Positions 14,931 to 58,523 of a DNA stretch of 64,000 nucleotides are shown one piece after another. Made by a program: the position numbers and the translations under genes. The notes below the pieces were generated by a model. The model searched no databases. It was not told the origin of the DNA and saw only the letters and a program-made list of their open reading frames with translations. The stretch's first letter is position 1. Every line of letters begins with the position of its first letter. This DNA is from Pedobacter riviphilus (GTDB lineage Bacteria > Bacteroidota > Bacteroidia > Sphingobacteriales > Sphingobacteriaceae), in assembly GCF_014692875.1 (NCBI RefSeq), contig NZ_CP061171.1, positions 2,170,001 through 2,234,000 on the forward strand, in the 5' to 3' direction.

Positions 14931-14968
14931 AAAAATCCCTTAATTTAATAATTAAGGGATTTTTTTTG
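14931..14968. terminator. Bidirectional terminator between citrate synthase and DUF3667 genes
   Basis: AATCCCTTAATT-TAAT-AATTAAGGGATT, a perfect 12-bp stem with A-run before and T-run after it, so it can stop transcription from both sides. Confidence 0.92.
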
Positions 14969-14981
14969 TGCTCTTCTTTAT

Positions 14982-16097: not shown

Positions 16098-16111
16098 GGG
16101 ATAAATGGAAA

Positions 16112-17491: not shown

Positions 17492-17676
17492 AATAATAGT
17501 TTAGTTTGAGTTATTGAAAGTAAAAGCTGAATATAGAACTATTTTGAATGATAATCCAAAATGAGCCCAAATTATTTTAAACAATTTGGGTCATCTTAGA
17601 ATTTAGCTTTTTATTTAGAGATTTTTAGCAAAAATCTGAAGGAATTTTGATTGGATGAATATTTTTTAAAGAAAAA

Positions 17677-18291: not shown

Positions 18292-18302
18292 ATTTATGAT
18301 AA

Positions 18303-18333
18303 GACCTTATAAGTTTTAAAAACCTATAAGGTC
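18303..18333. repeat. Hairpin between etfA and the bifunctional nuclease gene
   Basis: GACCTTATA / TATAAGGTC, a perfect 9-bp inverted repeat with a 13-base loop. It may attenuate transcription from etfA into the nuclease gene; there is no clear T-run. Confidence 0.5.
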
Positions 18334-18342
18334 TATAAGATA

Positions 18343-19311
18343 TTATCCCTTATGTGCTTTTAATGCTTCAATTAATTTGGGTACAACCTCAAAAGCGTCG
18401 CCAACAATACCATAATCGGCCACTTTAAAGAAAGGAGCTTCTGGATCTTTGTTGATTACAACAATCACTTTTGACGAACTCACACCCGCTAAATGCTGAA
18501 TAGCCCCAGAAATACCGATAGCAATATAAAGGTTAGGGCTAATCGCAATACCAGTTTGACCAACGTGTTCTGAATGTGGTCTCCAGTCTGCATCCGATAC
18601 CGGTTTAGAACAGGCTGTAGCAGCCCCCAACAAACCAGCTAATTCTTCGATCATTCCCCAGTTTTCTGGTCCTTTTAAACCCCTGCCAGCAGAAACTACC
18701 AATTCTGCATCAGGCAACGAAACTTTATCAGTTGCCCTAACAATTTCTTTAATAACGGTTCCTAAATCTGATTGTTTAATATCTGCAGCAAAGGTTTCTA
18801 TTGCAACATCTGTAGCATTTTCTTTAACACCAAATGCATTCGGATTTAAGGCGATTACTTTATTAGCAGATGTTAACTCTGTAATAGCAAACGCTTTACC
18901 TGAAAAGGCAGTTTTTTTAACCGAAAATTTACCATCAGTACTCGGTAATTCTACTGCGCCATCAGCTAAACCAGCTTTAAGTTTTACTGCAATACGCGGT
19001 GCTAAACCTTTACCAGAAAAAGAGTTAGACAAAACTATAATATTGGCACCTTCTTTTTCTGCTGCTGCAGCAATAACACTCGCATAAGCCTGATTTACAA
19101 AGGTTTTTAATTGGTCGGCATTTACATTTAATACCTTTGATGCACCGTATTTACCTAATTCTTTTAATTCACTGTCGGCAACATCGCCAATAGAAATTGC
19201 GGTTAAATTAGTTGATTGTTGATCGGCAATGGCTTTGGCATAAGATACGGCTTCAAATACAGATTTCTTAAATTTCCCCTCAGCTTGTTCTACATATACT
19301 AATACTGACAT
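18343..19311 (-). CDS. etfA: Electron transfer flavoprotein alpha subunit
   Basis: 322 residues. The C-terminal FAD-binding segment is intact (SEHVGQTGIAISPNLYIAIG, ISGAIQHLAGVSSSKVIVVI, FKVADYGIVGD), as is the SAGRGLKGPENW motif. With EtfB it forms the heterodimeric FAD/AMP carrier that takes electrons from acyl-CoA dehydrogenases and passes them to the quinone pool. It lies 61 bases after etfB, same strand. No ETF-ubiquinone oxidoreductase is in the window. Confidence 0.96.
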   Translation of the reverse strand: MSVLVYVEQAEGKFKKSVFEAVSYAKAIADQQSTNLTAISIGDVADSELKELGKYGASKVLNVNADQLKTFVNQAYASVIAAAAEKEGANIIVLSNSFSGKGLAPRIAVKLKAGLADGAVELPSTDGKFSVKKTAFSGKAFAITELTSANKVIALNPNAFGVKENATDVAIETFAADIKQSDLGTVIKEIVRATDKVSLPDAELVVSAGRGLKGPENWGMIEELAGLLGAATACSKPVSDADWRPHSEHVGQTGIAISPNLYIAIGISGAIQHLAGVSSSKVIVVINKDPEAPFFKVADYGIVGDAFEVVPKLIEALKAHKG

Positions 19312-19372
19312 ATATTTATTTCTTTATCCTTAACAGGATGGTGTAAACGATTTGATTTATTATGACTTAAAA

Positions 19373-20110
19373 CTAGATTACTTTAGCTTCACTATGAAGT
19401 AAGCCAATTAACGATTCTGTTTGATCAGCTGGAATTAACTTAACCGTTCCGCGAGGAGCAGGAGTTTCATATTTGGTTACCTTGGTTAGCTCTTCTACAG
19501 CAACTGCATCTACCACCGTTAATGGTTTAGTTCTAGCGCTCATGATACCGCGCATATTCGGGATTTTGGGTTCTGCTACACCTTCAGCACAACTTGCAAT
19601 AAACTTACCAGAAACGGTTAGAACTTCTTTACCACCTTCAATTTCTCGTTCAATTGTCGCTGTATCGCCATCAATAGTTAATTTTTTGATGATAGATACT
19701 GAAGGGATATCTAAAAATTCGCCAACCATAGCAGCCACCTGGTTACCGTTGTAATCGATAGACTCGCGACCAGTTAAAATAATATTGAAATCTTTGTCTT
19801 TCGCATATTCTGCAATCTGTTTTGCTACAAAATAAGCATCTCTTGGTGCCGCATTAATCCTAATTGCATCATCTGCACCAATTGCAAGCGCTTTTCTGAT
19901 GGTTGGATCGTTACCCGCTTCGCCAACATTGATCACAGTTACTGTTCCTTTTCCGCCTTCAGTTAATTCAATTGCACGTGATAAAGCAATTTCATCGTAT
20001 GGATTAACAATATATTGCACTCCCGACGTATTGAATTCGGTATTATCATTAGTAAAAGTTATTTTTGTCGTTGTGTCTGGCACGTTACTGATACAAACTA
20101 ATATTTTCAT
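19373..20110 (-). CDS. etfB: Electron transfer flavoprotein beta subunit
   Basis: 245 residues, with the AMP-binding fold (MKILVCISNVPDTTTKI, NPYDEIALSRAIEL) and the signature loop around TGRESIDYNGNQVAAMVGEFL. Partner of the alpha subunit encoded next. The recognition loop and AMP site segments are present, so it should be functional. A TAnnTTTG box on this strand at 20219-20212 could start a transcript with about 95 bases of leader. Confidence 0.96.
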   Translation of the reverse strand: MKILVCISNVPDTTTKITFTNDNTEFNTSGVQYIVNPYDEIALSRAIELTEGGKGTVTVINVGEAGNDPTIRKALAIGADDAIRINAAPRDAYFVAKQIAEYAKDKDFNIILTGRESIDYNGNQVAAMVGEFLDIPSVSIIKKLTIDGDTATIEREIEGGKEVLTVSGKFIASCAEGVAEPKIPNMRGIMSARTKPLTVVDAVAVEELTKVTKYETPAPRGTVKLIPADQTESLIGLLHSEAKVI

Positions 20111-20211
20111 ATGTTAATAGTGGTTTTTATTACTATGAACGATCTGGAACTAAAATTGTTTAGCTGTTGATCGGTTCATATATGATATCATTATTATATA
20201 AGGTCTTTCTG

Positions 20212-20219
20212 CAAATTTA
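20212..20219 (-). promoter_or_regulatory. Possible -7 box for etfBA
   Basis: TAAATTTG on the minus strand fits TAnnTTTG exactly, about 100 bases upstream of the etfB start. The AT-rich setting makes chance matches likely. Confidence 0.3.
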
Positions 20220-20241
20220 ATTAAAAAAGCAAGGAATTAAA

Positions 20242-20577
20242 ATGTCATCCACCCGATTAAGCAAGTTATTAGAATTTTTAGAAAGCGATCCTAACGATCC
20301 ATTTATACTATATGCCTTAGCCACAGAGTATAATGCGCAAAATGATAAAGAAAAGGCCTATTCTTTTTACCTTCAGTTAACTGATAAACACCCTGATTAT
20401 GTAGGTACTTACTATCATTTAGGCAAGTTATTCGAAAAAGACGATCAAAAAGAAAAGGCTATCGCTATTTATCAGAAAGGTATGGAAGTTGCTCGCAACA
20501 AAAGAGACATGCATGCTTTTTCTGAATTACAGGGCGCATATAATACCGCAGCGGGATTAGATTATGAAGACGACTAG
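20242..20577 (+). CDS. Small tetratricopeptide-repeat protein
   Basis: 111 residues made almost entirely of two to three TPR units (DPNDPFILYALATEYNAQND, then HPDYVGTYYHLGKLFEKDDQ, then a last helix pair). It has no signal peptide. Small solitary TPR proteins of this kind act as protein-protein adaptors. It is divergent from etfB and followed 35 bases later by the chromate transporter gene. Function unknown; fold call is confident. Confidence 0.85.
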   Translation: MSSTRLSKLLEFLESDPNDPFILYALATEYNAQNDKEKAYSFYLQLTDKHPDYVGTYYHLGKLFEKDDQKEKAIAIYQKGMEVARNKRDMHAFSELQGAYNTAAGLDYEDD

Positions 20578-20578
20578 G

Positions 20579-20606
20579 TCAGTTTTTAGTTAACAGTTAT
20601 CAGTTT
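20579..20606 (+). repeat. Four tandem heptamers, consensus WCAGTTW
   Basis: TCAGTTT, TTAGTTA, ACAGTTA and TCAGTTT follow each other without gaps just after the TPR gene stop, 7 bases before the chrA start. Short heptamer arrays of this sequence are known as intergenic repeats in several bacterial groups. Confidence 0.6.
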
Positions 20607-20612
20607 AAATTA

Positions 20613-21830
20613 ATGCAAAACAAACCTATCGCTGCAAAAAAACAGTGGTTATTTATTAGAAACGTAATCTTTTTTACATTTACTTCATTTGGAGGTGCAC
20701 AGGCACACCTTGCACTGTTGCTTAAATACTTTGTTCAGAGCACTAAATTTATTTCTGAGGAAGAACTTTTAGAATTAAATGCACTGGCGCAGGTACTCCC
20801 TGGACCAGCATCTACACAAACCCTGGTTGGGATAGCCTGGAAAGTTGGAAAGCTTAAACTGGCCATTATTACTTTCCTGATCTGGATATTACCCACAGCC
20901 ACCATAATGACCTTTGCAGCAATTAGTTATGCTTTGCTCGATCAAAAACAAAAGTTTAACGATATTTTAGAATATATCCAGCCAATTGCACTAGGTATTG
21001 TAGCTTATGGCGCATGGAAACTTGGTAAAAAGGTTTTATCCTCACAGGTTTCCATATTCCTGGCTACCGCTTCGGTTATTGCTACATTGGTTTTAAGAAA
21101 TGCTTATGTATTTCCATTATCAATATTGATTGGCGGAATGATCTCTTCGGCCATCGAAACACCAAAAGAGGAAACAGAGTTAAGGGTTAAACTTTTTTCA
21201 AATATCAATCCTCGAAAACTGATCTACTTTTTAGGTGCTTTGCTCTTGTTCGCATTGGTAGGTGCAATTATAAACCGAACTTCGCCTTTTAGCTTGCCCA
21301 TTCGCTTACTCGAAAACTTTTACCGTAATGGAATATTGGTTTTTGGAGGAGGGCAGGTGCTTGTTCCTTTAATGTTTACCGAATTTGTAGAGATGAAACA
21401 TTATCTGCCTTCATCAGGGTTTTTATCTGGCTTTGCACTCCAGCAAGCTTTACCTGGTCCAACATTTTCTTTTACCAGCTATTTGGGTGCACTAAGCATG
21501 AAGAATTTTGGATACGGATTATGGGGCCAAATTTTAGGCGGATTGATCGGAGTAATTGGCATTAACTTACCTGGACTAATCCTCGTTTTATTTATTGTAC
21601 CGTTTTGGGATGACTTAAAAAAAATCTCCAGAATCCGTCATAGTCTTTCCGGAATCAATGCTGTTAGCGTTGGATTTATTATTGCTGCTTTTGTGCTTCT
21701 TTTAATACCAATGGGCTTTAACTGGATATTTTTTGGGATTATGATCGCTACATTTCTACTGCTTAACTTCACAAAAATAAGTCCACCGATTATCGTATTG
21801 GCAGGTATTCTTATCGGATACATTTTTTAA
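20613..21830 (+). CDS. chrA: Chromate transporter, two-domain CHR family
   Basis: 405 residues with about 10-12 membrane helices in two homologous halves. Each half carries the CHR signature: FGGAQAHLALL with LAQVLPGPASTQ in the first, and FGGGQVLVPLM with ALQQALPGPTFSFTSYLG in the second. ChrA exports chromate using the membrane potential; many family members in soil bacteria have unproven substrates. The start is ATG 20613; the gene may be co-transcribed with the TPR gene. Confidence 0.9.
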   Translation: MQNKPIAAKKQWLFIRNVIFFTFTSFGGAQAHLALLLKYFVQSTKFISEEELLELNALAQVLPGPASTQTLVGIAWKVGKLKLAIITFLIWILPTATIMTFAAISYALLDQKQKFNDILEYIQPIALGIVAYGAWKLGKKVLSSQVSIFLATASVIATLVLRNAYVFPLSILIGGMISSAIETPKEETELRVKLFSNINPRKLIYFLGALLLFALVGAIINRTSPFSLPIRLLENFYRNGILVFGGGQVLVPLMFTEFVEMKHYLPSSGFLSGFALQQALPGPTFSFTSYLGALSMKNFGYGLWGQILGGLIGVIGINLPGLILVLFIVPFWDDLKKISRIRHSLSGINAVSVGFIIAAFVLLLIPMGFNWIFFGIMIATFLLLNFTKISPPIIVLAGILIGYIF

Positions 21831-38773: not shown

Positions 38774-40834
38774 ATGAGCAATAAGAAGATCCCTTTTTTA
38801 AACCGCGAAATCAGTTGGCTTTACTTTAACGAACGTGTACTGCAGGAAGCTGCTGATGAAACAGTTCCGCTGATTGAACGGATTAAATTTCTATCTATAT
38901 TTTCTTCAAATTTGGAGGAGTTTTACCGTGTGCGGGTAGCCACCATGACCCGACTAACCAATTTGAACGATAAGGCTAAAGCACTTTTAGGATTTAACTC
39001 AAAGAAAATTCTGAATGAGATTAAAAATATTGTTGTAAAACAGGAAAGAAAATTTGACCAGCTTTTTCAGGCTACCTTAATAAACGAACTTGCTCAAAAC
39101 AGGATTTTTATTTTAAACGATACCCAACTGAATGTAAGCAGGGGCGAATTTGTTAAAAATCACTTTAGGGATAAGATTTTATCTAATCTGGTTCCCATTA
39201 TGCTGGATATGGATAAACCTTTTCCAGAATTGAAAGACCGGTACCTTTACTTTTTTGTTAAACTTTCAAAAAAGGATACAAAAATTAAAGAGAAATATGC
39301 ACTCATTGAAATTCCGCCCAATTTGCCACGATTTTTGGTGTTGCCCGAAACAAACGATCTAAAATTTATAATTCTGGCCGAAGATATTATCCGATATTGT
39401 TTAGACGATATATTTTATGTTTTTACGTACGATAATTTAGAGGCTTATTCGATCCAGTTAACACGGGATGCGGAATTGGACATTGATAAAAACATTAATG
39501 ATAAATTTATCGATGATTTAAAAAACAGTTTGGAAAAACGCAAAAAAGGAAAACCGATGCGTTTGCTTTATGATTCGGCTATGCCTTTAAATATGCTTAC
39601 TGTACTGGTGAATAAACTTAAGCTTGAGGCCGAAAGTTTAATTCCAGGTAACCGTTACCATAAATTTGGCGATTTTATTGCCTTCCCAAATGTGGGTAAA
39701 AAGGAATTGGAATATGCGCCGAACGTGCCGCTAAAGGTACATGATTTGCACAGAACCCAAAGCATGTTCGCTAAAGTTGCCCAGCGCGATTATTTGGTGA
39801 ATTTACCCTACCAATCGTACGATTACATTATTCTGTTTTTGCGTGAAGCCGCAATTGATCCGAAAGTAACCGAAATACAGATTACCTTATACCGATTAGC
39901 CGAAAACTCAAAAGTAATTAATGCATTAATTAACGCTGCTAAAAATGGTAAAGCAGTTTCTGTTTTATTAGAACTTAAAGCCCGTTTTGATGAACAGGCT
40001 AATATTTACTGGACGAGCCGCTTAATGGAGGAAGGTGTTAAGGTGAATTACGGTTTAACTGACTACAAAGTACACTCCAAAATTTGTTTGGTTAAACGGA
40101 TCGAAAAAGATAAGCCAGTATACTATGCAAACTTAGCAACAGGAAACTTTAACGAGAAAACCGCAGGTTTATACTGTGATCATAGTATTTTCACGGCTAA
40201 AAAAGAGATTACCAACGATCTGGTAAAGCTTTTTGATGCGTTGAGTAAACGTACCGTAACGAAGGGATTTAAACACCTGATTGTTTCGCCGCTGGAGAGC
40301 CGCTCGAAATTGGTCAATTTTATTAACCGCGAAATCAGGAACGCAAAACAAGGTAAACTCGCTTACATCATGTTAAAGGTAAATAGTTTAGCGGATGAAG
40401 GGATTATTGCCAAACTTTACGATGCGAGCAATGCTGGCGTTAAAATTCAGCTGATTATCCGTGGTATCTGCTGTTTGGTACCGGGAGTAAAGGGCTTTAG
40501 TGAAAATATTACGGCCATCAGTATTATCGATAAGTTTTTAGAGCATGCCCGGGTTTATATTTTCGGTAATAACGGTAAAAACGACATGTATTTATCATCC
40601 GCAGATTTAATGAGCAGGAATTTCGAACACCGTGTAGAGGTAGGATTCCCGGTTTTGGATCATGATGTGAAACAGGAGATACAGGATATCATTGATCTGC
40701 AACTGCAGGATAATACCAAATCGAGGCAGATCAATGCTTTGAACAATAATAAATACCATAAAAACAGATTAAGTAAAAAGATAAGGGCGCAGGTAGACAT
40801 CTATAACTATTTAAAAACCAAGCATCAATCATAA
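38774..40834 (+). CDS. ppk1: Polyphosphate kinase 1
   Basis: 686 residues, full length. The N-terminal region (FLNREISWLYFNERVLQEA, FSSNLEEFYRVRVA) and the two phospholipase-D-like halves are present. The autophosphorylated His lies in DYKVHSKICLV (about 435) and the second conserved His in LEHARVYIFGN (about 590). GNFNEKTA and SADLMSRNFEHRVE complete the active site. It reversibly builds polyphosphate from ATP. Its stop overlaps the ppx start (TAATG). A terminator ends just 7 bases upstream, so its promoter probably lies before that hairpin. Confidence 0.96.
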   Translation: MSNKKIPFLNREISWLYFNERVLQEAADETVPLIERIKFLSIFSSNLEEFYRVRVATMTRLTNLNDKAKALLGFNSKKILNEIKNIVVKQERKFDQLFQATLINELAQNRIFILNDTQLNVSRGEFVKNHFRDKILSNLVPIMLDMDKPFPELKDRYLYFFVKLSKKDTKIKEKYALIEIPPNLPRFLVLPETNDLKFIILAEDIIRYCLDDIFYVFTYDNLEAYSIQLTRDAELDIDKNINDKFIDDLKNSLEKRKKGKPMRLLYDSAMPLNMLTVLVNKLKLEAESLIPGNRYHKFGDFIAFPNVGKKELEYAPNVPLKVHDLHRTQSMFAKVAQRDYLVNLPYQSYDYIILFLREAAIDPKVTEIQITLYRLAENSKVINALINAAKNGKAVSVLLELKARFDEQANIYWTSRLMEEGVKVNYGLTDYKVHSKICLVKRIEKDKPVYYANLATGNFNEKTAGLYCDHSIFTAKKEITNDLVKLFDALSKRTVTKGFKHLIVSPLESRSKLVNFINREIRNAKQGKLAYIMLKVNSLADEGIIAKLYDASNAGVKIQLIIRGICCLVPGVKGFSENITAISIIDKFLEHARVYIFGNNGKNDMYLSSADLMSRNFEHRVEVGFPVLDHDVKQEIQDIIDLQLQDNTKSRQINALNNNKYHKNRLSKKIRAQVDIYNYLKTKHQS

Positions 40835-41715
40835 TGTTAAGATACGCAGCTATAGATATCGGGTCTAATGCGGTGAGGTTACTCATTGCCGATATTAGCA
40901 AACAAGACGGAAAATATAAGTATAAAAAAAACACCCTTATACGTGTGCCGCTCCGGTTGGGAGATGATGCATTCTTAGATCAATATATATCGGAAAAAAA
41001 ATCTGCAGATCTGGTAAAAACCATGACTGCTTTTAAAAATCTGATGGACGTTTATCATGTTTCTGAATATTTGGCTTGTGCAACATCTGCTATGCGCGAA
41101 GCCCGTAATGGAGAAGATATTGTTAAGTTGATTAAAAAGGAAGCAGACGTTACTTTAGAGATTATTGAGGGGCAGCGGGAAGCGAATATTATTTATGCTA
41201 ACCATATTGAAGAAGAGTTAGACGAAAATAAAAACTACCTATATATTGATGTTGGTGGAGGTAGTACTGAACTGTCGGTTTTCGTAAAAGGTGCTCCAGA
41301 AGCATCAAGATCCTTCAATATTGGCACAATCAGGATGCTCGATAATCAGGATAAGGAAGAAACCTGGGAAGAGATGAAAGATTGGGTAAAAGAGCATACA
41401 AAAGAATATAAACATTTGGCTGGCATAGGTACAGGTGGCAATATTAATAAATTGTTCCGCATGTCGGATGAGAAGGAAAATGCGCCATTATCGTTGCAGA
41501 AATTAAATTCGATGTACAATAAATTAACCAGTTATTCATTGAAAGAAAGGATCAATACGCTGGGTTTAAACCCCGACCGTGCAGATGTAATTATTCCGGC
41601 CTGCGAAATTTACCTTACTTTAATGAAATGGACAGGTATAAAACAGATTTATGTACCTAAAGTGGGAATGGCTGATGGAATTATTAAGTTATTGATAGAA
41701 GAGAAGTTGGATTAG
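40834..41715 (+). CDS. ppx: Exopolyphosphatase (Ppx/GppA family)
   Basis: 293 residues: the short form that contains only the two actin-like domains. Motifs: AAIDIGSNAVRLLIAD (phosphate 1), ACATSAMREARNG, EGQREANIIY, YIDVGGGSTELSVF and GIGTGGNINKL. It removes terminal phosphate from polyphosphate (or pppGpp in GppA-type members). One-base overlap with ppk1 means the synthesising and degrading enzymes are made together. The HD-type C-terminal domain of E. coli Ppx is absent. Confidence 0.9.
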   Translation: MLRYAAIDIGSNAVRLLIADISKQDGKYKYKKNTLIRVPLRLGDDAFLDQYISEKKSADLVKTMTAFKNLMDVYHVSEYLACATSAMREARNGEDIVKLIKKEADVTLEIIEGQREANIIYANHIEEELDENKNYLYIDVGGGSTELSVFVKGAPEASRSFNIGTIRMLDNQDKEETWEEMKDWVKEHTKEYKHLAGIGTGGNINKLFRMSDEKENAPLSLQKLNSMYNKLTSYSLKERINTLGLNPDRADVIIPACEIYLTLMKWTGIKQIYVPKVGMADGIIKLLIEEKLD

Positions 41716-48279: not shown

Positions 48280-48783
48280 TCATGTTTCTTTATCTTTCGG
48301 TTTTGGTTGATATATAAATGTTACAACTGGATGTTTCGTTTTGTTGCTCTATTTATTTTCCTGGCACCATACCTTGTAATAAAATTATTACGTACCTCCC
48401 TTGTGTTAATGATTTAATCAGGCATTGCCTCGTTTTTCTTTATTTATAGCTAAATATTCTATTTTTTGCTTTATTCAGTATAACTTAGGTATCCAATTCT
48501 TTTTGCGATCATCAATATTTCTGTCTGTTTAAACATTCAATTAAAAAATATTTCTTGCTGATTTATTTTATTGTTTTTAGTTTCGATTTGTTTTGTTAAT
48601 TTTAATTAACGAAATATATAGTAAGCAAAACCAAATAAATCGCAATATATTTAGGTTGCTTTTTAATACGTTAATGTTTGCTTAATATATTTTTAACATA
48701 AACAGACTTACTTTGCCCGCAAATCCGGACAAAATAAATCGCACATATGAACCCCATTACTAACCGGATATACTATAATAATT
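48280..48783 (+). other. Intergenic region upstream of the SusC gene (504 bases)
   Basis: Very AT-rich and without a convincing gene. It contains a perfect inverted repeat GTTAATT-TT-AATTAAC (48595-48610) lying inside a larger imperfect palindrome (CGATTTGTTTTG about 48584 with CAAAACCAAATAAATCG about 48632). A promoter-like TTACTTTGC lies at 48708-48716, one base off TAnnTTTG, about 70 bases before the susC start. The size of the leader suggests regulatory content, but no known riboswitch is recognised. Confidence 0.5.
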
Positions 48784-51700
48784 ATGATCAAAAATTTTAC
48801 TCAACAGGTTTCGTGGCATCATTGCGTTCTGCATGTAAAGCAAAGTAGCCCTCATAATCACCAAACGAAAAGTCGAACTTTTTTTAAGGGCAAACTAAAA
48901 CGCTTTAGTTTTTTAGTTTGTGTTATGCTGATACAATTAATTTGTATTAACGAAAGTTTTGCGCAAACTCCAGCGCAAAATATTGTAATTAAAGGTACTG
49001 TGTTAGATGACCAGGACGGACAAATATTAATTGGAACCACGATAACGGATAACAATAAAAAATTTTTAGGGGTAACCAACGAGAAAGGAAATTATATCAT
49101 CACTATTGCTAAAGGAACAACCGTTTTATATAATATGGTGGGGTATACAACCTTGCGGAAAACGTTTAATAATAACGAAAACAATGCAACAATAAGGTTG
49201 GCTTCATCTACCAGCCAGTTAAGCGAAGTGGTAGTTACGGCACTAGGAATAAAACGTGAAGAAAAAGCATTGGGTTATGCCGTAACAAAGGTTGATAGCA
49301 CACAACTCACCGATGCAATATCAAGCAATTGGACAGACGCATTATCTGGAAAAGTTGCCGGATTAAATCTTGTTAGAAACAGTGGACCCGCGGGTTCTAA
49401 TAAAATTATTTTAAGGGGCGAGAACAATCTTACCGGGGATAATGAGGCGCTTATTGTGATTGATGGAGTAGTAGCAAGTAGCAGCTCAAGGCGTACTGCA
49501 GCAACGGGCGGTGGAGTATACGGAACATCGGGCGATATTATGCCGGTAGATTTTGGTAGTGGTATTAATGATTTAAATCCTGATGATATTGAGAGCGTAA
49601 CGGTGTTAAAAGGTCCCGCAGCTTCTGCACTTTATGGGCAACGAGGCGCCAATGGAGCGGTTATGATTACAACTAAATCAGCTAATAAAAATAAAAAGAA
49701 GTTAGGAATTTCTTTTACTTCTAATAGCTCTTGGGAGGATGTTAATCGTGGTCCTGCCAGACAAAATGAATTTGGAGCCGGTACAGACGGTACTACAAGT
49801 TATCAATTTGGTACAGGTAATACAAGTTCAACTTATGGCCCGGCTTTCGCTGATGGATATATGTTTTTCCAATATGATCCTGCAACTAAAGCAAAAGGCT
49901 TAACCAAAACACCATGGGTAGGCTATGGAGACCCTGTTGATGGTTTTTTTATCACAGGTTTCGAATCTACCAATTCGGTTAGTTTAGATGGAACACTTAA
50001 AAAAGTAGGTCTTCGTTTCTCGGCAAGCCACGGTAATAATGAGTGGATTGTACCGAATACCGGTATGGAAAGAACAAATGTTTCGCTAAACGCGAATACG
50101 AATATTACCAAAAGATTAAGCTTAAATTTAAAAGTACAATATAGTAACAGGAACAGTGATAATTTGCCTGCCACGGGTTATGGCAATCAATCGTTAATGT
50201 ATTGGTTTATGTTTGCACAGCCTAACATTAATCCAGATTGGTACCGGGATTATTGGGCTCCAGGTAAAGAACTACAACAGTTTGTAAATTTAACAACCTC
50301 TTTTCCGGAAGGCCCTTATGCTATTTCAGAACAGTATTTAAATGGACAAAAACGTAACGGCTGGTTAGGAAATATACAAGCTACCTATAAATTTACTGAT
50401 GAATTGAGTTTAATGGTGCGTGCATCTGGAGATTATAATAAAGATAGACGTGAAACCATGCGCCCTTGGGATACTTCATCAGGCGGTATGTTTGCACAAG
50501 GATCTTATCGTGTAGCTGATATTAAATCGTATGAAATTAATGCCGATTTTATGTTGAAGTACGATAAAAAACTAACAAAAGATTTTAATTTATCAGCAAG
50601 TGTTGGAGGTAGCCAAATGCGTAACGAATATAGTAAGTTAGAAACCCGTGCAGATGGTTTAAAAATACCCGGGTATTATAGCTTAACCAATAACATTAAC
50701 AAATTGGTTTATGTGCCAGATACCGCCCGTTATAGAATTAACAGTCTTTATGCAATGACATCGCTGGCTTACAAAAACTATTTATTTTTAGATTTAACTA
50801 TCCGTCAGGATTGGAACAGTACATTGGCTACTTTAACAAGAAAAGATAATGTTGGTTTTTCTTATCCATCGGCGAGTTTAGCTTTTGTAGCGTCAGATTT
50901 TTGGGAAATGCCAAAAGCAATAAGTTTTGCAAAGTTAAGAGCATCTTATGCACAAGTAGGAAGTGGTAGTACAACTCCTTATCGTACTGCTTACAACTAC
51001 TTAATAGCTGCCAATGGTGTTTACCCTGGCAATGCAATGACGAACCCAAGGATTTTACCAAATCCAGATTTAAAACCATTAATGACGACAACCATTGAAT
51101 TGGGATTGGATTTGAAATTATTTAAAAACAGGTTAAATTTTGATGTTGCCGTTTATAGCGGTAATACAAAAAATCAAATACTTAGTCGTGTACTCGATAA
51201 ATCATCGGGTTATGATATTGGTATTTTTAATGTTGGTAGAGTAAATAACAAAGGTTTAGAAATGTCAGTTAATGCTACGCCATTAAAAACTAAGAAATTT
51301 ACATGGACATTGAATGGTACATTTAGCGCTAACCGTAACGAAATTAAAGAATTAGCAGATAGCTCGGTAATTTTGCGTACAGGTGGTTTTGGCAACTCGG
51401 GGCAAGTGGTTGCGGCAGTTGGCGGCAGTATGGGAGATTTGTATGGAACTGGCTTTTTACGTTCTCCTGATGGTCAGATAATTTTTGATGCAGTAACAGG
51501 CTATGCTAAACCAACTGCAGAAGTAAAATATTTAGGTAATACTTTACCTAAATTTAGGTTTAGTTTTGGTACTGGTGTAACCTATCAACAAGTAAGTATG
51601 AGTGTTTTATTCGATGCACAATTAGGTGCTGTTGGTCACTCGTTTACTTTTGCCCGTATGGCTTCATTGGGTAAGTCAACAATTACTTTACCTGGTAGAT

Positions 51701-52080
51701 ATAATGGTATAATTGGTGATGGAGTTGTAGATAACGGTGGAGGTACCTATCGTAAAAACGATATTATTGCTACAGATATAGAGGGATATTACAATTCTTT
51801 ATATTACAACCAAGCAGAAGGAAGTATTTTTAGTACAGATTATTTAAAATTCAGAGAAGCAAATATTACTTATGCTTTTAATAAGAAATTCCTGAGCAGA
51901 ATTGGCTTTAGTAAACTAACAATAGGTGCTTACGGTCGTAATCTGTTCATTTGGTCACCTTGGCCTGCATTCGATCCAGAGTTTGGAACTTTAGCTGGCT
52001 CAGATATTCAACAAGGGTTTGAAACCGGTCAACTTCCCTCTACAAGAAATTATGGAGTGCGTTTAGTTGTTGGTTTATAA
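48784..52080 (+). CDS. SusC/RagA-type TonB-linked outer membrane transporter
   Basis: 1098 residues. A long N-terminal extension ends in a hydrophobic signal (cleavage near SFAQ, residue 61). It is followed by a carboxypeptidase-like beta-sandwich (IVIKGTVLDDQDG to about 150), the TonB box region LSEVVVTALGIKREEKALGY, the plug (DDIESVTVLKGPAASALYGQRGANGAVMITTK, in pieces) and a large barrel ending in RNYGVRLVVGL. It imports oligomeric nutrients with its SusD partner. The five genes behind it are phosphoesterase-rich, so the substrate is probably a phosphodiester or lipid-derived compound. No sigma/anti-sigma pair or hybrid two-component regulator lies next to it. Confidence 0.93.
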   Translation: MIKNFTQQVSWHHCVLHVKQSSPHNHQTKSRTFFKGKLKRFSFLVCVMLIQLICINESFAQTPAQNIVIKGTVLDDQDGQILIGTTITDNNKKFLGVTNEKGNYIITIAKGTTVLYNMVGYTTLRKTFNNNENNATIRLASSTSQLSEVVVTALGIKREEKALGYAVTKVDSTQLTDAISSNWTDALSGKVAGLNLVRNSGPAGSNKIILRGENNLTGDNEALIVIDGVVASSSSRRTAATGGGVYGTSGDIMPVDFGSGINDLNPDDIESVTVLKGPAASALYGQRGANGAVMITTKSANKNKKKLGISFTSNSSWEDVNRGPARQNEFGAGTDGTTSYQFGTGNTSSTYGPAFADGYMFFQYDPATKAKGLTKTPWVGYGDPVDGFFITGFESTNSVSLDGTLKKVGLRFSASHGNNEWIVPNTGMERTNVSLNANTNITKRLSLNLKVQYSNRNSDNLPATGYGNQSLMYWFMFAQPNINPDWYRDYWAPGKELQQFVNLTTSFPEGPYAISEQYLNGQKRNGWLGNIQATYKFTDELSLMVRASGDYNKDRRETMRPWDTSSGGMFAQGSYRVADIKSYEINADFMLKYDKKLTKDFNLSASVGGSQMRNEYSKLETRADGLKIPGYYSLTNNINKLVYVPDTARYRINSLYAMTSLAYKNYLFLDLTIRQDWNSTLATLTRKDNVGFSYPSASLAFVASDFWEMPKAISFAKLRASYAQVGSGSTTPYRTAYNYLIAANGVYPGNAMTNPRILPNPDLKPLMTTTIELGLDLKLFKNRLNFDVAVYSGNTKNQILSRVLDKSSGYDIGIFNVGRVNNKGLEMSVNATPLKTKKFTWTLNGTFSANRNEIKELADSSVILRTGGFGNSGQVVAAVGGSMGDLYGTGFLRSPDGQIIFDAVTGYAKPTAEVKYLGNTLPKFRFSFGTGVTYQQVSMSVLFDAQLGAVGHSFTFARMASLGKSTITLPGRYNGIIGDGVVDNGGGTYRKNDIIATDIEGYYNSLYYNQAEGSIFSTDYLKFREANITYAFNKKFLSRIGFSKLTIGAYGRNLFIWSPWPAFDPEFGTLAGSDIQQGFETGQLPSTRNYGVRLVVGL

Positions 52081-52091
52081 AAATTATAGTT

Positions 52092-53663
52092 ATGAGAAAG
52101 AATAAAAACATTATTATATATATCATCCTGGCAGGATTGAGTTTATCAACACTCTCTTGCACAAAAGATTTTAATGAAGTTAATACCGATCCGCTTGGAA
52201 AAACAGAAGTAAATGCAGATCAGCTGTTGGCGCCAACATTAGTAAACCTAATGTCGACCAATATGTTGCGTAACCGTAACTTTAATAACGAGTTAATGCA
52301 GGTTACTGTTGATTTAGGCGATGCCGAAGGAAAAACGTTTAGATATGATATTAGACGAAGCGCTGCTGATAACACATGGAACAATTGGTATTTAAATTTA
52401 ACCAATATTGTTGATATTCAGAATATTGCGAGTAAACCAGAAAAATTAAATAAATCATATCAAGGTATTTCTCTTATCATACAATCTTGGATATATTCTT
52501 TACTTACAGATACTTATGGCGATGTACCTTTTACAGAAGCTAATAAAGGAAAAGAAGGTAATTACCAACCGGTTTTTGATAAGCAAAAAGATATTTATTT
52601 AGGAATGTTTGAGAAACTTGAACAAGCTAATAATTTATTGAAAGATGGAACACCAATTGTTGTTACCAGCGATCCTGTTTTTTATGGAGATGTAAGTAAA
52701 TGGCGTAGATTAGGTAATTCACTGTATTTAAGATTATTGCTTCGCGTATCGGGCAAAGCCGAAGTTTCACCAACTGTTATTGCTAAAATAAAGGATATCG
52801 TTGATGTTAATTCTGCTAATTATCCAATCATGGTCAATAATCAGCATACAGCTAAATTACAATGGACAGGTTCTAATGTAAGCAATGCATTACTTACATC
52901 ACCCTTTATGGCAAATGTACGCGTTAATGATTTTTACGTGCCTGCACTTGGTGAGTTTTTCATAAATAATCTGGTAGTATGGAATGACCCCCGCATTCTT
53001 CAATCTTACGGTACAAGTGGTATTAATCGTTTCCGTATTAGGCCAGGTACTAATGGATATGCAGGTGTGCCAAGTGGTTATGTACCAGGTAACGAGCCTG
53101 CAAAACAATCTAGTTTTTATTCGGCAAGTGATAATGCAGTTTTATCTCTTCAAACCGATCCTTATACAGGGATAATTATGAATGCTGCCGAAGTAGATTT
53201 TATTTTAGCAGAAGCAGCCGCCAAAGGATGGATAAGTGGAAGTGCCCAAACTTATTATTACAAAGGAATTGCAGATGCGATAAATTATTGGTTACCTACG
53301 GTAATGACTGGCGGTGCAACCGATCCAGCAGTAACTGCTTATGTTAATGCAGCTGACATTGAATGGAATAATGCATTACCATTAAACAGCGCATCGCCTA
53401 ACACAATGAGTAAAATGTTGTTAATCCATCAACAAAAATATTATGCATTGTTTTTGGTCGATTTTCAGCAATGGTTCGAATACCGTCGTAGTGCATACCC
53501 AATTTTGCCAAAAGGTTTAGGTTTGCTTAACAATGGGATAATGCCTGCCCGGTTATTTTATCCAGTGGTTACTCAATCAGCAAATCCTACCAATTATAAA
53601 AATGCGGTAGCGTCGCAAGGTGCCGATGCAATCAGTACACAAGTTTGGTGGCAAAAACCTTAA
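52092..53663 (+). CDS. SusD/RagB-type lipoprotein
   Basis: 523 residues. Lipobox TLSC with C23, then CTKDFNEVNTDP, the opening of the SusD-like type 2 family (PF12771). The helical TPR-rich core (SWIYSLLTDTYGDVPFTEA, LILAEAAAKGW, KYYALFLVDFQQWFEYRRS) is complete. It forms the lid on the SusC barrel and captures substrate at the cell surface. Starts 11 bases after the SusC gene, so they are co-transcribed. The SusD type 2 group is linked to peptides, glycans or other nutrients, so it does not fix the substrate. Confidence 0.92.
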   Translation: MRKNKNIIIYIILAGLSLSTLSCTKDFNEVNTDPLGKTEVNADQLLAPTLVNLMSTNMLRNRNFNNELMQVTVDLGDAEGKTFRYDIRRSAADNTWNNWYLNLTNIVDIQNIASKPEKLNKSYQGISLIIQSWIYSLLTDTYGDVPFTEANKGKEGNYQPVFDKQKDIYLGMFEKLEQANNLLKDGTPIVVTSDPVFYGDVSKWRRLGNSLYLRLLLRVSGKAEVSPTVIAKIKDIVDVNSANYPIMVNNQHTAKLQWTGSNVSNALLTSPFMANVRVNDFYVPALGEFFINNLVVWNDPRILQSYGTSGINRFRIRPGTNGYAGVPSGYVPGNEPAKQSSFYSASDNAVLSLQTDPYTGIIMNAAEVDFILAEAAAKGWISGSAQTYYYKGIADAINYWLPTVMTGGATDPAVTAYVNAADIEWNNALPLNSASPNTMSKMLLIHQQKYYALFLVDFQQWFEYRRSAYPILPKGLGLLNNGIMPARLFYPVVTQSANPTNYKNAVASQGADAISTQVWWQKP

Positions 53664-53680
53664 TTTTAAGCTAAATTAAT

Positions 53681-55270
53681 ATGAAAAATACATTAAAATA
53701 TATAAATGCTTTCGCTGTTATTGCATGTATATTAATCATAGGATGTGATAAACAAAAAGATGAATTTGTATTAGGTACAATAAGTCCTTTTATCTCTAAT
53801 TTTGATTTAAAGAAATCTTATAAAGAAACCGATTTGGTACTTAATACAACTGTTATGAAAGGTGCCTCCTCTATAAAAGGAGTAGTAATATCTGATTTTG
53901 TGGCGGGGAATACACCAAAAAATTTATTAGTTGTTCAAAACTCAAGAATTGTTGGTAATGGTATTGACTCGGTACGAGGGATAGCCATAAATATTGGTGC
54001 AGATGCAGCTAAATACACAGTAGGCGATTCGGTGCACATTAAAGTAGAAGGTGGGATTTTAAAGCGTGTAGATGGTGTGCTTCAAATTGAAGGTGTAAAT
54101 AGCACCGCAGTTAACAAAATTGCTTCTGGTAAAAACATTAAAGTGCCAGTTGTAAATATTGCTAATTTAATAGCTCAACCTTTAGTGTACGAAAACACAT
54201 TGGTTACCGTAAGTAATACCGTAGTAGAACCCGAGCCGGTACAGGGCGATACTTTTTCTGGCGATAAAACCATTAATGACGGTTTTGGTAAAGCAAGACT
54301 ACATACCGAAGCTACAGCCAATTTTTCTGGTAATCAATTACCTTCTGCTGCAAATTTTACTGGAGTTGCATATTTTAAAACACAAAACAACCAGCCCCAG
54401 CTTTCTTTATGGGTGCGTAATGCGAATGATGTATTTGCCTTGCCATTAGTAAAGCCTTCTCCAATAATTATTTCTGGCTACTTAACCAATCCCGGAGGTA
54501 GTGAAGCTGTAACTAGCGGAACTCAAAAGGGAGCATATGAATATGTACAATTATTGGCAACAAAAGATATCGATTTTTCAGTTACTCCATACTCTTTAGT
54601 TACTACTAATAATGCAGGTTCTGCAAATCCGGCTCCTGCAAATGGATGGGCAACTGGTGGGGTACGTACCTATAAAATTAACATTACATCTGGTACTGCT
54701 AAAAAAGGTGATTTTATTTATGTTGGCGGTTACAGCAAATTGATATGGGGTTTTGGCTCAACAAATATTTCATCAGCAAACTGGGTGGCCGCAGTAGATT
54801 ATGCAAATAATGATGGCGCAAACTTTGGAACTAAAAACACAAATTTATTAGCAAATAGCGGTAATGTAGCAGGTATAGCTCTTTTTGAAGGTACCACAGT
54901 TAATGCAAGTACAGTGCCAGTAGATGTGATTATGTATGGCGGAGGAAATCCAAATTCTGGAAATGTATATGTTGCAGGCCCACCAGAACTTGGTTATAGA
55001 ATTACAAATACAGATTATTACACTACAATAAATCCTTCTTCTCGCTTACAGCAAAACTTCTTTGGTGCTGGCAGCAATACCAATCGCTTAGGTTTTCAAG
55101 TTGAGCAGACCGGCACAAGTGGAGGTGGTTTTATCCAACTTGGTGGTATATATATAACAAGTACAGGAAGATGGGAAAAAGGTAGATTACTCACAAATAT
55201 TGTAATGTCTACAACTGCTACTATTTCTGATTTGCAAACCGGAGCAGGCGTTACTGTTTTAAAGAATTAA
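53681..55270 (+). CDS. DUF5689 surface lipoprotein
   Basis: 529 residues. Lipobox IIGC with C22, then a domain (KGVVISDFVAGNTPKNLLVVQ, VGDSVHIKVEGG) of DUF5689, an OB-like fold frequent in Bacteroidota SusCD loci. A C-terminal region of about 250 residues follows (SPIIISGYLTNPGGSEAV, YEYVQLLATKDIDFS, GDFIYVGGYSKLIWG), resembling carbohydrate/nuclease-associated surface modules. It lies 17 bases after the SusD gene. Probably the surface glycan- or substrate-binding member of the locus, by position and lipid anchor. Confidence 0.72.
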   Translation: MKNTLKYINAFAVIACILIIGCDKQKDEFVLGTISPFISNFDLKKSYKETDLVLNTTVMKGASSIKGVVISDFVAGNTPKNLLVVQNSRIVGNGIDSVRGIAINIGADAAKYTVGDSVHIKVEGGILKRVDGVLQIEGVNSTAVNKIASGKNIKVPVVNIANLIAQPLVYENTLVTVSNTVVEPEPVQGDTFSGDKTINDGFGKARLHTEATANFSGNQLPSAANFTGVAYFKTQNNQPQLSLWVRNANDVFALPLVKPSPIIISGYLTNPGGSEAVTSGTQKGAYEYVQLLATKDIDFSVTPYSLVTTNNAGSANPAPANGWATGGVRTYKINITSGTAKKGDFIYVGGYSKLIWGFGSTNISSANWVAAVDYANNDGANFGTKNTNLLANSGNVAGIALFEGTTVNASTVPVDVIMYGGGNPNSGNVYVAGPPELGYRITNTDYYTTINPSSRLQQNFFGAGSNTNRLGFQVEQTGTSGGGFIQLGGIYITSTGRWEKGRLLTNIVMSTTATISDLQTGAGVTVLKN

Positions 55271-55342
55271 TTAAAAATAAATGAATATAACAAGGATAGT
55301 AGTATGCTATCCTTTGTTAGTTAAAATAGGTGCTCAGCAAAA

Positions 55343-56752
55343 ATGAACAGAAGATCATTTATACAAAAATCAACTTTATTAACCACCACCTTATTTGTTA
55401 GCTTAAAATCCTTTCCTTCATCGCTTTTTTCTGTTGATGGCCTGGTAAGCGGAACGGTAACTAGCAAAGGTAAACCTGTTGCCGGAGTGGTTATTTCTGA
55501 TGGCTACAGCGTGGTACAGACAGATAAAAATGGCAACTATGAAATTAAACTGCATGAGCTTGCCCGTTTTGTTTGGATCAGCACGCCTTCGGGTTACGAG
55601 TTTAAAACCGACAGCAGTATTGCGCGCCATTATTATAAACCAGATACGGCCGGTAAGTTGAATTTCGATCTTAAACCCCTAAAACAAAATGATAACAAAC
55701 ATAATTTTATCATTTGGGCAGATCCTCAGGTGAGGAATAAAAAGGATGTTCAGCAAATGATGGAAACTTCGGTTCCTGATACAAGAGAAGTAGTAAAAGC
55801 AATGGGGAAAACACCTGTTCATGGAATCGGTGTTGGAGATTTAGTTTGGGATAATTTTGATCTTTTTCCTGCATATGATGAGGCTATTGCTAAAATCGGA
55901 ATTCCATTTTTCCAGGCATTAGGAAATCATGATCAGGATTACAGGCTGGGTGGTGATGATACCTCTGACCGTACTTTTCAAGCACATTATGGGCCAACTT
56001 ATTATTCTTTCAATAGGGGAAAGGCCCACTATGTGGTTTTAGACGACGTACGCTATTTAGGTGTAGAAAGAACTTATGATGGATACATTACCTCAACACA
56101 GTTAGAATGGCTGGCCAAAGATTTAGAATTGGTACCTAAAGATGCTTTATTAATTATATGCCTACATATTCCGGTACACAATTCGGTAAAAAACAATGAT
56201 GATTTTTATGCTGTTTTAAAGGATTTCAAAAACGTACATATTATGTCTGGTCACACCCATTTTAATAAAAACGTAATTAAAAATGGTATTTACGAGCATA
56301 ATCATGGTACAGTATGCGGTGGTTGGTGGACAGGACCAATCTGTGGCGACGGCACACCGCGTGGTTATGGTGTTTATGAAGTGAACGGAACAGATTTAAA
56401 ATGGTTCTACAAATCAACTGGCGAAGACCGTAAAAAACAGTTGAGCATTTACGTAGATACCCTAACCAATCAGAAAAGATTGATAGCCAATGTGTGGAAT
56501 TATGATCCTGAATGGAAAGTAGAATATTTTTTGGATGGAAAAGCGATGGGTACTTTGACAACCCAGGATGGATTTGATCCTTTATCAGTTAAATTATATA
56601 AAGGTGATAAATTGCCAAACCCTAGGCCATTTGTTGAACCGATCTCTACAGATCATTTATTTTTGGCACATTTTGAGCCTTCAGTTAAAAAAGTGAAGGT
56701 AATAGCAACTGATCGTTTTGGAGAAAAATTTGAAGCAGAAATAGAAGCCTAA
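55343..56752 (+). CDS. Exported calcineurin-like metallophosphoesterase
   Basis: 469 residues. A short N-terminal hydrophobic segment with an RRSF Tat-like start (residues 3-6), a beta-sandwich domain (VSGTVTSKGKPVAGVVISDG), the metallophosphatase core and a C-terminal beta domain. Metal motifs: ADPQ (D near 127), GVGDLVWD, LGNHDQDY, CLHIPVH and MSGHTHFNKN. All five dimetal motifs are present, so it should be active on phosphomono- or diesters. The three-domain layout with flanking N and C beta domains is known in Bacteroidota. Fourth gene of the SusCD locus, 72 bases after the DUF5689 gene. Confidence 0.88.
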   Translation: MNRRSFIQKSTLLTTTLFVSLKSFPSSLFSVDGLVSGTVTSKGKPVAGVVISDGYSVVQTDKNGNYEIKLHELARFVWISTPSGYEFKTDSSIARHYYKPDTAGKLNFDLKPLKQNDNKHNFIIWADPQVRNKKDVQQMMETSVPDTREVVKAMGKTPVHGIGVGDLVWDNFDLFPAYDEAIAKIGIPFFQALGNHDQDYRLGGDDTSDRTFQAHYGPTYYSFNRGKAHYVVLDDVRYLGVERTYDGYITSTQLEWLAKDLELVPKDALLIICLHIPVHNSVKNNDDFYAVLKDFKNVHIMSGHTHFNKNVIKNGIYEHNHGTVCGGWWTGPICGDGTPRGYGVYEVNGTDLKWFYKSTGEDRKKQLSIYVDTLTNQKRLIANVWNYDPEWKVEYFLDGKAMGTLTTQDGFDPLSVKLYKGDKLPNPRPFVEPISTDHLFLAHFEPSVKKVKVIATDRFGEKFEAEIEA

Positions 56753-56851
56753 TAATGCTTTCAGATGACTCTGGTTATAAATTTAATATAGATTTAATTA
56801 ACCGCGTTAATTGGTAACACTTGATACCATTATCTTGTAGATTAATTAATA

Positions 56852-56875
56852 GCGTTGGATGTTAACGTTCAACGC
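56852..56875. repeat. Near-perfect palindrome before the GDPD gene
   Basis: GCGTTGGATGTTAACGTTCAACGC pairs with its own complement except at two symmetric positions. It lies 25 bases before the start codon at 56900, a good place for an operator or a leader hairpin. Confidence 0.5.
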
Positions 56876-56899
56876 CACCATAAAATCCCTCTTTTGGAT

Positions 56900-57799
56900 A
56901 TGAAACTTAAAAAAACAGCAATTTTGATTCTTTTATCCGCATTTGTAGTAAAATCGAATGCTCAGGACGTTAAATTCCCTGTATTTAGTGCAGAAGCACA
57001 TCGTGGTGGAAGAGGGCTTATGCCCGAAAATACTATTTTGGCTATGTTAAACGCCATGAAAATAGAAGGAATTACCACTTTGGAAATGGATACCCACATT
57101 TCTAAAGATGGTAAAGTCGTGGTAACACACGACGATTATCTGAGTCCGGCATTTATGCTTACCCCAGAAGGGAAAGACATTCCGGTAACAGATGCCAAGA
57201 AATATCCGATTTTCGGCATGAATTACGATGAAATTAAGCAGTTCGATTTGGGTACCAAATATTACGATCTTTTTCCTCAGCAAAAGAAGGAAAAGACGTA
57301 TTTACCTTTACTTGCTGATTTAATTGATGCTGTTCAACGCGATATTAAAACCAATAAACGCAAACAGTTTTTCTACAATATTGAAACTAAATGCAGCGAA
57401 AGTGGTGATGGAATTACCAATCCTAAACCTGAAGAATTTGTCAAACTTTTGATGGACGTCATCATAAAGAAAAAGGTTACTGATTTTGTGGTGATTCAAT
57501 CTTTCGATAAACGTACGATTCAGATCATCCATGAGAAATACCCAAAAATGAAAACTTCCTTTTTGGTTGCCAATAAAAAAACATATGAAGAAAATATTGC
57601 CGATTTAGGCTATAAGCCTTTTATTTTGAGTCCGGTTTGGCAAATGGTGAACGAAGAGTTCGTAAAAAAGGCACATGCTGATGGCGTAAAAATCATTCCT
57701 TGGACCGCCAATACTTTAGCTGATATTCAGAAATTAAAAACCTTAAATGTTGATGGTATTATTTCTGATTACCCTGATATTTTAGTTCAGGCAAAATAG
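56900..57799 (+). CDS. glpQ: Periplasmic glycerophosphodiester phosphodiesterase
   Basis: 299 residues from ATG 56900; the in-frame ATG at 56855 would put a palindrome inside the gene and charged residues before the signal peptide, so I rejected it. Signal peptide cleaved near SNAQ (residue 22). GDPD core: AHRGGRGLMPENTI (HR and E/N), TLEMDTHISKDGKVVVTHD (metal Glu/Asp and His) and the C-terminal IIPWTANTLADIQKL. It hydrolyses glycerophosphodiesters to glycerol 3-phosphate and alcohol. Fits the phosphoesterase theme of the locus. Confidence 0.9.
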   Translation: MKLKKTAILILLSAFVVKSNAQDVKFPVFSAEAHRGGRGLMPENTILAMLNAMKIEGITTLEMDTHISKDGKVVVTHDDYLSPAFMLTPEGKDIPVTDAKKYPIFGMNYDEIKQFDLGTKYYDLFPQQKKEKTYLPLLADLIDAVQRDIKTNKRKQFFYNIETKCSESGDGITNPKPEEFVKLLMDVIIKKKVTDFVVIQSFDKRTIQIIHEKYPKMKTSFLVANKKTYEENIADLGYKPFILSPVWQMVNEEFVKKAHADGVKIIPWTANTLADIQKLKTLNVDGIISDYPDILVQAK

Positions 57800-57827
57800 T
57801 ATTTTCGACTTTGTAAAAAAATAGAAA

Positions 57828-58523
57828 ATGAAGGCACTTTTAAATAAGTTATTCGTAACTGCTGTTGTATTTACCATAAGCTTCGCAACAGCTTCGGCTC
57901 AGGTGGTTAAATGGGACAGCACCTATCGCCCGGGGAAATATGTTGAGCAGGTGGCTAAATTTAAAGCTGATCCAAAATCTAAAAAAGATATTGTTTTTTT
58001 AGGTAACAGCATTACTGCCGGAACAGATTGGGCTAAACTTTTAGATCTTCCACAAGCAAAAAACAGAGGGATCTCTGGCGATATTACTTTTGGCGTTTTA
58101 GAGCGTTTGCAGGACGTAATTGATGGTAAACCTGCAAAAGTGTTCATCCTGATTGGTATAAACGATATTTCCAGGAATATTCCAGATAGCGTGATCTTAA
58201 GGAATTATAAAACAATGATTGCCAGAATCAGAAAAGGGTCGAAGAAAACAAAAATATATTTTAATACACTTTTGCCTGTTAATGCGGCCTTCGAAAAGTT
58301 TAAAAACCATTATGGTAAAGATGAACACATTCTTTGGTTAAACGATGAAATCAGAAAATTTGATGCTAAAAATGTAACGGTTATCGATCTGTATCCAAAT
58401 TTTACCGATCTGGACAAACATTTAAAAGCAGAGCTTACCAAAGATGGTTTACATCTTATTCCTGCCGGATACCAGGTTTGGGCCGACCTTCTTAAAAAGT
58501 CTGGTTATTTAACCGAGAAATAA
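57828..58523 (+). CDS. Exported SGNH/GDSL-family hydrolase
   Basis: 231 residues. Signal peptide (cleavage near ASAQ, residue 25). SGNH blocks: block I VFLGNSITAG (nucleophile Ser), block II Gly in RGISGD, block III Asn in GINDISRNIPD, block V KDGLHLIPAGYQVW (Asp-His). It should be an esterase or lipase acting in the periplasm or at the surface; acyl or acetyl esters are usual substrates. Last gene of the SusCD locus, 28 bases after the GDPD gene. With GDPD and phosphoesterase it could deacylate and dephosphorylate phospholipids. Confidence 0.86.
   Translation: MKALLNKLFVTAVVFTISFATASAQVVKWDSTYRPGKYVEQVAKFKADPKSKKDIVFLGNSITAGTDWAKLLDLPQAKNRGISGDITFGVLERLQDVIDGKPAKVFILIGINDISRNIPDSVILRNYKTMIARIRKGSKKTKIYFNTLLPVNAAFEKFKNHYGKDEHILWLNDEIRKFDAKNVTVIDLYPNFTDLDKHLKAELTKDGLHLIPAGYQVWADLLKKSGYLTEK

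Follow-up and report, generated by a model that had tools for sequence, protein, structure and literature searches.

A SusC/SusD locus of Pedobacter riviphilus with a probable role in glycerophosphodiester utilisation

Gene content of the locus

The window considered here is a 64,000-nucleotide stretch of Pedobacter riviphilus DNA (contig NZ_CP061171.1, positions 2,170,001 to 2,234,000; the genome is a single contig of 5.83 Mb), within which six co-directional genes encode a SusC/SusD outer-membrane pair, a DUF5689 lipoprotein, a metallophosphoesterase (MPE), a glycerophosphodiester phosphodiesterase (GDPD) and an SGNH/GDSL esterase (Table 1). A first-pass annotation, made from the letters alone, had described positions 48784-58523 as a SusC/SusD locus built around phosphoesterases and an esterase instead of glycoside hydrolases, and this description holds: in Pfam, the six proteins match no glycoside hydrolase family, and no phosphomonoesterase family is found among them either. 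Together with the gene neighbourhood of its relatives, this content makes it probable that the locus serves the utilisation of glycerophosphodiesters as part of a glp regulon.

Table 1. Features of the SusC/SusD locus and its upstream region (positions in the window)
Feature	Position	Strand	Basis
Second operator-like site, ATGTTTCGTTTTGTTGCTCT	48331..48350	+	Upstream of SusC; top match of the glpD-site model in the 64-kb window
Operator-like site, TAGTTTCGATTTGTTTT...TTAACGAAA	48578..48614	+	~200 nt upstream of SusC; regular expression, SusC-upstream model, 15-mer pattern
SusC/RagA-type TonB-dependent outer-membrane transporter	48784..52080	+	Open reading frame (ORF) list, Pfam, TIGR04056
Exchanged cassette: SusC from ~residue 270, SusD, DUF5689, first MPE codons	~49600..55400	+	Identity to Pedobacter sp. 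Bi126 (L086) versus flanks
SusD-like lipoprotein (SusD-like_2)	52092..53663	+	ORF list, Pfam
DUF5689 lipoprotein	53681..55270	+	ORF list, Pfam
MPE (MetallophosN-Metallophos-MetallophosC)	55343..56752	+	ORF list, Pfam, GpdQ/Rv0805-like catalytic domain
GDPD	56855..57799	+	ORF list, Pfam
SGNH/GDSL esterase	57828..58523	+	ORF list, Pfam

SusC carries TonB barrel, Plug and CarbopepD_reg_2 domains and scores 553.8 against the TIGR04056 cut-off of 368.25; SusD matches PF12771 with 325.8 bits (cut-off 27), and the DUF5689 lipoprotein scores 79.7 (cut-off 28.6). GDPD matches PF03009 with 120.3 bits and the esterase Lipase_GDSL_2 with 93.8, and the MPE matches its three metallophosphoesterase domains and nothing else in Pfam. 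From SusC through to the esterase the intergenic gaps are 11, 17, 72, 102 and 28 nt. The ORF list gives GDPD a TTG start; the next in-frame ATG, at 56900, is the likely start, as it yields a protein of 299 aa, a length common among relatives, and widens the preceding gap to 147 nt. Between DUF5689 and the MPE, close to where the cassette ends on the right, window positions 55292-55314 form a hairpin of 10 pairs, followed by a T-containing stretch; alone it is no evidence of function.

The SusD and DUF5689 proteins have lipobox-like N-termini, GDPD and the esterase have signal peptides, and the MPE begins with RR-x-F, which we take to be a start of the twin-arginine translocation (Tat) type; R3, R4 and F6 are each at least 90% conserved among 47 sequences. 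The fold of the MPE catalytic domain is that of the GpdQ-like class III phosphodiesterases, with Rv0805 an equally good match, and the solved structures closest to the esterase are sialate O-acetylesterases. Fold gave no function for the DUF5689 protein: its model is confident (pLDDT, the predicted local distance score, of 88.4), but the Foldseek matches were weak, the best being OB-fold HIN domains with an E-value of 4e-5 and a query TM-score of 0.20.

Relatives and their glp genes

A search with the MPE recovered 79 distinct loci from the best 80 of 90 stretches encoding a relative, and their ORFs were labelled by best BLAST match to reference proteins. The same gene order, which the first-pass annotation had proposed to seek in other genomes, is conserved among them, with SusC in 76, SusD in 71, DUF5689 in 73, GDPD in 66 and the esterase in 54 of the 79; the MPE, being the query, is present in all by construction. 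Loss of the phosphoesterases from syntenic loci, named at the outset as an observation that would speak against the annotation, is thus not the pattern, as GDPD is mostly kept, although it was MPE that served to find the loci in the first place. Some relatives have two GDPD copies, and FecR and extracytoplasmic function (ECF) sigma factor genes occur in 21 and 19 loci, respectively. Of 36 genomes of the same genus, 27 encode a full-length MPE orthologue at 61% identity or more, some of them at 92-97%.

At least one glp gene lies in or beside the cluster in 27 of the 79 loci: GlpT in 22, GlpD in 24, a DeoR-family regulator in 21, GlpK in 14 and GlpF in five. These genes are interleaved with those of the locus, typical arrangements being GlpK-GlpD / GlpR-SusC-SusD-DUF5689-MPE-GDPD-GlpT-SGNH as in L102 and L105, GlpD-SusC-SusD-DUF5689-MPE-GDPD-GlpT-SGNH in L118 and L120, and GlpD-SusC-SusD-DUF5689-MPE-GlpK-GlpF-GDPD in Pseudoflavitalea (L140 and L141). 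Among 59 genomes, 36 of them congeneric, eight encode GlpT of at least 67% identity, in every case inside the locus and within a few kb of the MPE. Curated models are matched above cut-off by GlpT (L105) and by GlpK and MIP (L140). In the window genome, glpF, glpK, glpD and a DeoR-family gene (contig positions 1893188-1893952) stand together at 1.889-1.894 Mb, unlinked to the SusC/SusD locus.

Individual relatives carry further genes. In L096 (12317-14467), GDPD and GlpT are separated by a protein of the GH36 alpha-galactosidase type, which has a cluster mate in L126, and in L055 (8464-9870) a lipoprotein that combines two TIG domains with an NAGPA phosphodiester glycosidase domain is encoded between the DUF5689 copies and the MPE; a PLD-like protein is found in L132 and a sulfatase in L138. 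A record titled Flavobacteriaceae bacterium PS02338 (L131) has a Pedobacter-type locus and flanks, so its title may be wrong.

An operator-like motif common to SusC and glpD

In loci where SusC comes first, the sequence upstream of the gene includes a conserved element, TAGTTTCGATTTGTTTT...CGAAA, in most cases at a distance of 130-210 nt. A weight matrix was built from 16 distinct sites of this kind in relatives; the window contributed none, but its 20-mer occurs identically in a relative. Across the window's 127,962 positions, a single one reaches 14.9 or more, namely the SusC site itself with 30.5, and in the 18-kb glp region of the same genome the best site, at 14.9, lies just upstream of glpD. 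Of 20 glpD/glpR intergenic regions taken from relatives, 10 have a best score of 14.9 or higher, eight one of 9.4-12.4 and two one below 5. In the reverse comparison, a matrix was made from seven distinct sites upstream of glpD in relatives, and its top match in the window is at 48331, again upstream of SusC.

The motif was also counted by type of head, leaving aside three loci that lack SusC and three in which a contig ends at SusC. It occurs within two mismatches in 37 of 43 SusC-first loci, and upstream of glpD in seven of nine with the order GlpD-SusC, giving 44 of 52 over the non-ECF heads; L146 was counted as a miss merely through its SusC being split in two frames, the site being present at one mismatch.

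Several observations weigh against a glp-linked glycerophosphodiester locus. In the stretches examined, 52 of the 79 loci have no glp gene and 13 lack GDPD, and 21 have an ECF-sigma/FecR head in which the motif is found in none (0/21), a contrast that is somewhat flattering given that 74-264 nt were searched before the ECF genes and up to 600 nt before SusC. The glpD-upstream site leads its region by a small margin, 14.9 against 13.7 for a runner-up inside glpD, and the 48578 site ranks only 14th with the glpD-site matrix. The exact 15-mer pattern GTTTCGWTTTRTTWT has two places genome-wide, the SusC-upstream and glpD-upstream sites, but was written from those two and shows merely that there is no third exact copy. 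As a genome-wide regulon finder it was rejected, with 17 one-mismatch matches and no excess over the 31 of a reversed control; of six such matches examined, four fall within open reading frames, and a SusC gene adjoins none of the six. GlpD scores under the curated-model cut-offs, and the best curated model for the regulator is AgaR, not GlpR, at 247 (L105) and 249 (the window genome's own gene) against a cut-off of 260. The solved SusD proteins nearest in sequence to that of the window are glucan binders. Finally, GlpT was not found in the window's own genome, where the last steps would rest on putative phosphatases; this genome has 10 matches to PF01663 and one to PF00245, and none could be assigned to the role. 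The motif link between the SusC locus and glpD is nonetheless good, if not proof of a regulon, and the DeoR-family regulator encoded beside glpD likely controls the locus through it.

Cassette exchange and two control heads

Identity to Pedobacter sp. Bi126 (L086) is 97-99% over ~49.7-55.4 kb of the window and 73-94% outside, the flanks of the cassette being at 73-90%; inside the match there are 0-5 differences per 100 nt, except for one gap of ~90 columns near 53.6 kb. Against L077, L082 and L123 the same stretch is instead the least alike, at 52-75% on a background of mostly 72-96%. The edges are sharp, one falling within the part of SusC that encodes the plug and the other where the MPE begins. 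Among 24 loci whose MPE is more than 84% identical to that of the window, pairwise SusC identities track those of SusD (r 0.96) and DUF5689 (r 0.91) and hardly those of MPE (r 0.26) or BioF (r 0.16), and MPE tracks BioF (r 0.76). Trees of 18 loci, built from SusC, SusD and DUF5689 or from MPE, BioF and the LexA-like protein, reject each other in the approximately unbiased (AU) test, with p-values of 3e-81 and 1e-8. GDPD fits this partition less well, tracking MPE poorly (r 0.33), so the parts outside the cassette had a history of their own. The SusC barrel, SusD and DUF5689 have evidently passed between Pedobacter species as one block, at a fixed chromosomal site. As DUF5689 travels with SusC and SusD, it would be the third subunit of the surface complex, and the comparison suggests that it belongs there.

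Two relatives differ in their complement of cassette genes. In a contig from a metagenome-assembled genome (L112; 6193-7605 and neighbours), SusC, SusD and DUF5689 are missing between a fatty acid hydroxylase gene and the MPE, and MPE, GDPD and a partial esterase gene are retained. Directly downstream of the first locus in L105, a second SusC-SusD-DUF5689 set is found (14755-21226), which is possibly a stage or a donor of cassette exchange.

The mode of control appears to have been swapped too, with one uptake cassette standing behind either an operator-like or an ECF-sigma/FecR head. Pedobacter alluvionis (L074) has an ECF head and P. borealis (L077) an operator head; their DNA is mostly 84-96% identical across the SusC barrel, SusD and DUF5689, as against only 50-68% for the head. 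The longer SusC of the ECF-type loci has an N-terminal extension of ~78 residues in L074 and L134, and no STN domain was detected by Pfam in either.

Proposed function

Judged by family, SusC/SusD and the DUF5689 lipoprotein would capture at the cell surface a molecule that contains glycerophosphodiesters and is probably oligomeric, and import it across the outer membrane. In the periplasm, as family and fold suggest, the esterase would strip acyl or acetyl groups, the Tat-type MPE would cut phosphodiesters, and GDPD would free glycerol-3-phosphate. In relatives with GlpT, this product would enter through GlpT and be oxidised by GlpD; in the window genome, without GlpT, its phosphate is probably removed in the periplasm, and glycerol would then be taken up and used through GlpF, GlpK and GlpD. 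The enzymology of GDPD, GlpT, GlpK and GlpD is established, with glycerol-3-phosphate as the common product, and on the best reading the locus would yield carbon as well as phosphorus.

The first-pass annotation had predicted the capture and breakdown of phospholipids, glycerophosphodiesters or teichoic-acid-like polymers. The glp genes in relatives' loci and the operator-like motif at glpD support a SusCD locus aimed at glycerophosphodiesters. Because free glycerophosphodiesters are small enough for porins, the SusCD pair argues for a larger substrate, which may be glycerol-phosphate polymers such as teichoic acids; the substrate could also be lipid head groups. The GH36 proteins (L096 and its cluster mate L126), the phosphodiester glycosidase (L055) and the PLD-like protein (L132) suit decorated polymers, but are few. 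A more specific proposal, that the locus eats Gram-positive teichoic acids or similar glycerol-phosphate polymers of neighbouring bacteria, captured at the Pedobacter surface, with cassettes as alleles tuned to differently decorated polymers and heads alternating independently between glp operator and ECF-sigma/FecR control, is offered tentatively, as the odds do not favour it.

Comparison with known systems and alternative explanations

Closest among described systems are the phosphate-utilisation SusCD loci (PUS) of Flavobacterium, in which a SusCD-like pair, PusCD (PUSI/PUSII), stands beside predicted periplasmic phosphodiesterases, with a proposed role in organic-phosphorus import (Lidbury et al., PMC8115612). 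These were shown to be induced by low phosphate and have pf16670 and PhoA1 as neighbours and pf07980/pf14322 as SusD families. The first-pass annotation knew of no described polysaccharide utilisation locus (PUL) of this make-up; the pairing of SusCD with phosphodiesterases has this precedent, and what remains particular here are the SusD family and the glp genes, of which the available portion of PMC8115612 names none. The locus could be of this PUS type, induced by low phosphate and taking organic phosphodiesters for phosphorus, with the glp genes merely disposing of glycerol-phosphate. The Flavobacterium precedent and the ppk/ppx genes 7 kb upstream (38774-41715) speak for this, but it is unlikely: the window SusD is of the SusD-like_2 family, not that of PusD1/PusD2, the upstream motif is common with glpD, and the six genes include no phosphomonoesterase family. 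Orthology with PUSI/PUSII was rejected, PF14322 reaching 21.2 bits for the window SusD (cut-off 27) and PF07980 not being listed by Pfam; since PusD is called polyphyletic in the portion of PMC8115612 available, this excludes kinship and not a similar way of working. The further suggestion that phosphate feeds the nearby polyphosphate cluster was not borne out, no test having connected ppk/ppx with the locus, whose partner genes are those of glycerol-3-phosphate catabolism.

With a canonical PUL the locus shares the SusC/SusD pair and not the glycan-degrading enzymes. Less probable still is an ordinary polysaccharide locus whose glycan bears phosphodiester and acyl decorations and is cut by enzymes encoded elsewhere. 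The GH36, NAGPA and sulfatase genes of single relatives fit such a glycan, as do the solved proteins closest to the esterase and SusD, yet glp genes recur among the relatives and no glycoside hydrolase is among the six genes. A housekeeping role, in which the cell would recycle phospholipids of its own envelope instead of feeding on outside material, is consistent with the broad conservation of the MPE in the genus but very improbable, as outer-membrane import by SusC/SusD and the interspecies exchange of surface parts point outward, and the glpT/glpD linkage points to catabolism.

Glycerophosphodiester utilisation in a glp setting, the preferred explanation, has partial counterparts elsewhere. 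In enterobacteria, the glpTQ and glpFKD regulons unite a glycerophosphodiesterase, GlpT, GlpF, GlpK, GlpD and a DeoR-family repressor in one pathway; here that pathway is joined with a SusC/SusD/DUF5689 import module and the MPE. The MPE is 15% identical to GpdQ of Enterobacter aerogenes, from which it differs in its additional N- and C-terminal domains and Tat-like start. In Bacillus subtilis, GlpQ, an exo-acting glycerophosphodiesterase of the GDPD kind, and PhoD, a metallophosphoesterase-type phosphodiesterase, degrade glycerol-phosphate polymers and release glycerol-3-phosphate (PMC7086022). The locus likewise combines a GDPD-family enzyme with a second of metallophosphoesterase type; as described in the part of that source available, the B. 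subtilis system acts on its own Gram-positive wall, whereas the locus has an outer-membrane import pair, and its MPE has no PhoD family match in Pfam. Allele exchange has a parallel in RagAB of Porphyromonas gingivalis, a SusC/SusD-type pair whose distinct alleles have spread across strains (PMC5266723). That exchange, so far as the accessible text goes, is within one species, while the Pedobacter cassette has crossed species borders, includes a third lipoprotein and stands behind either of two control heads. No description of a SusCD locus with glp genes was found in the literature searched, whose coverage mostly left out subscription journals.

Implications

The locus would extend SusC/SusD systems from glycans to glycerophosphodiesters and join them to central glycerol-3-phosphate catabolism. 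With a candidate regulator and operator named, its substrate could be found by experiment instead of guesswork. The exchange of cassette and head at one fixed site provides a natural allele set, in which it can be asked whether substrate, or attack by phage or toxin, drives SusCD variation. Were the teichoic-acid proposal true, a SusCD system would here be feeding on a polymer of bacterial walls and not on a glycan, which would reveal a way for Bacteroidota in soil to obtain carbon and phosphorus from the walls of Gram-positive bacteria.

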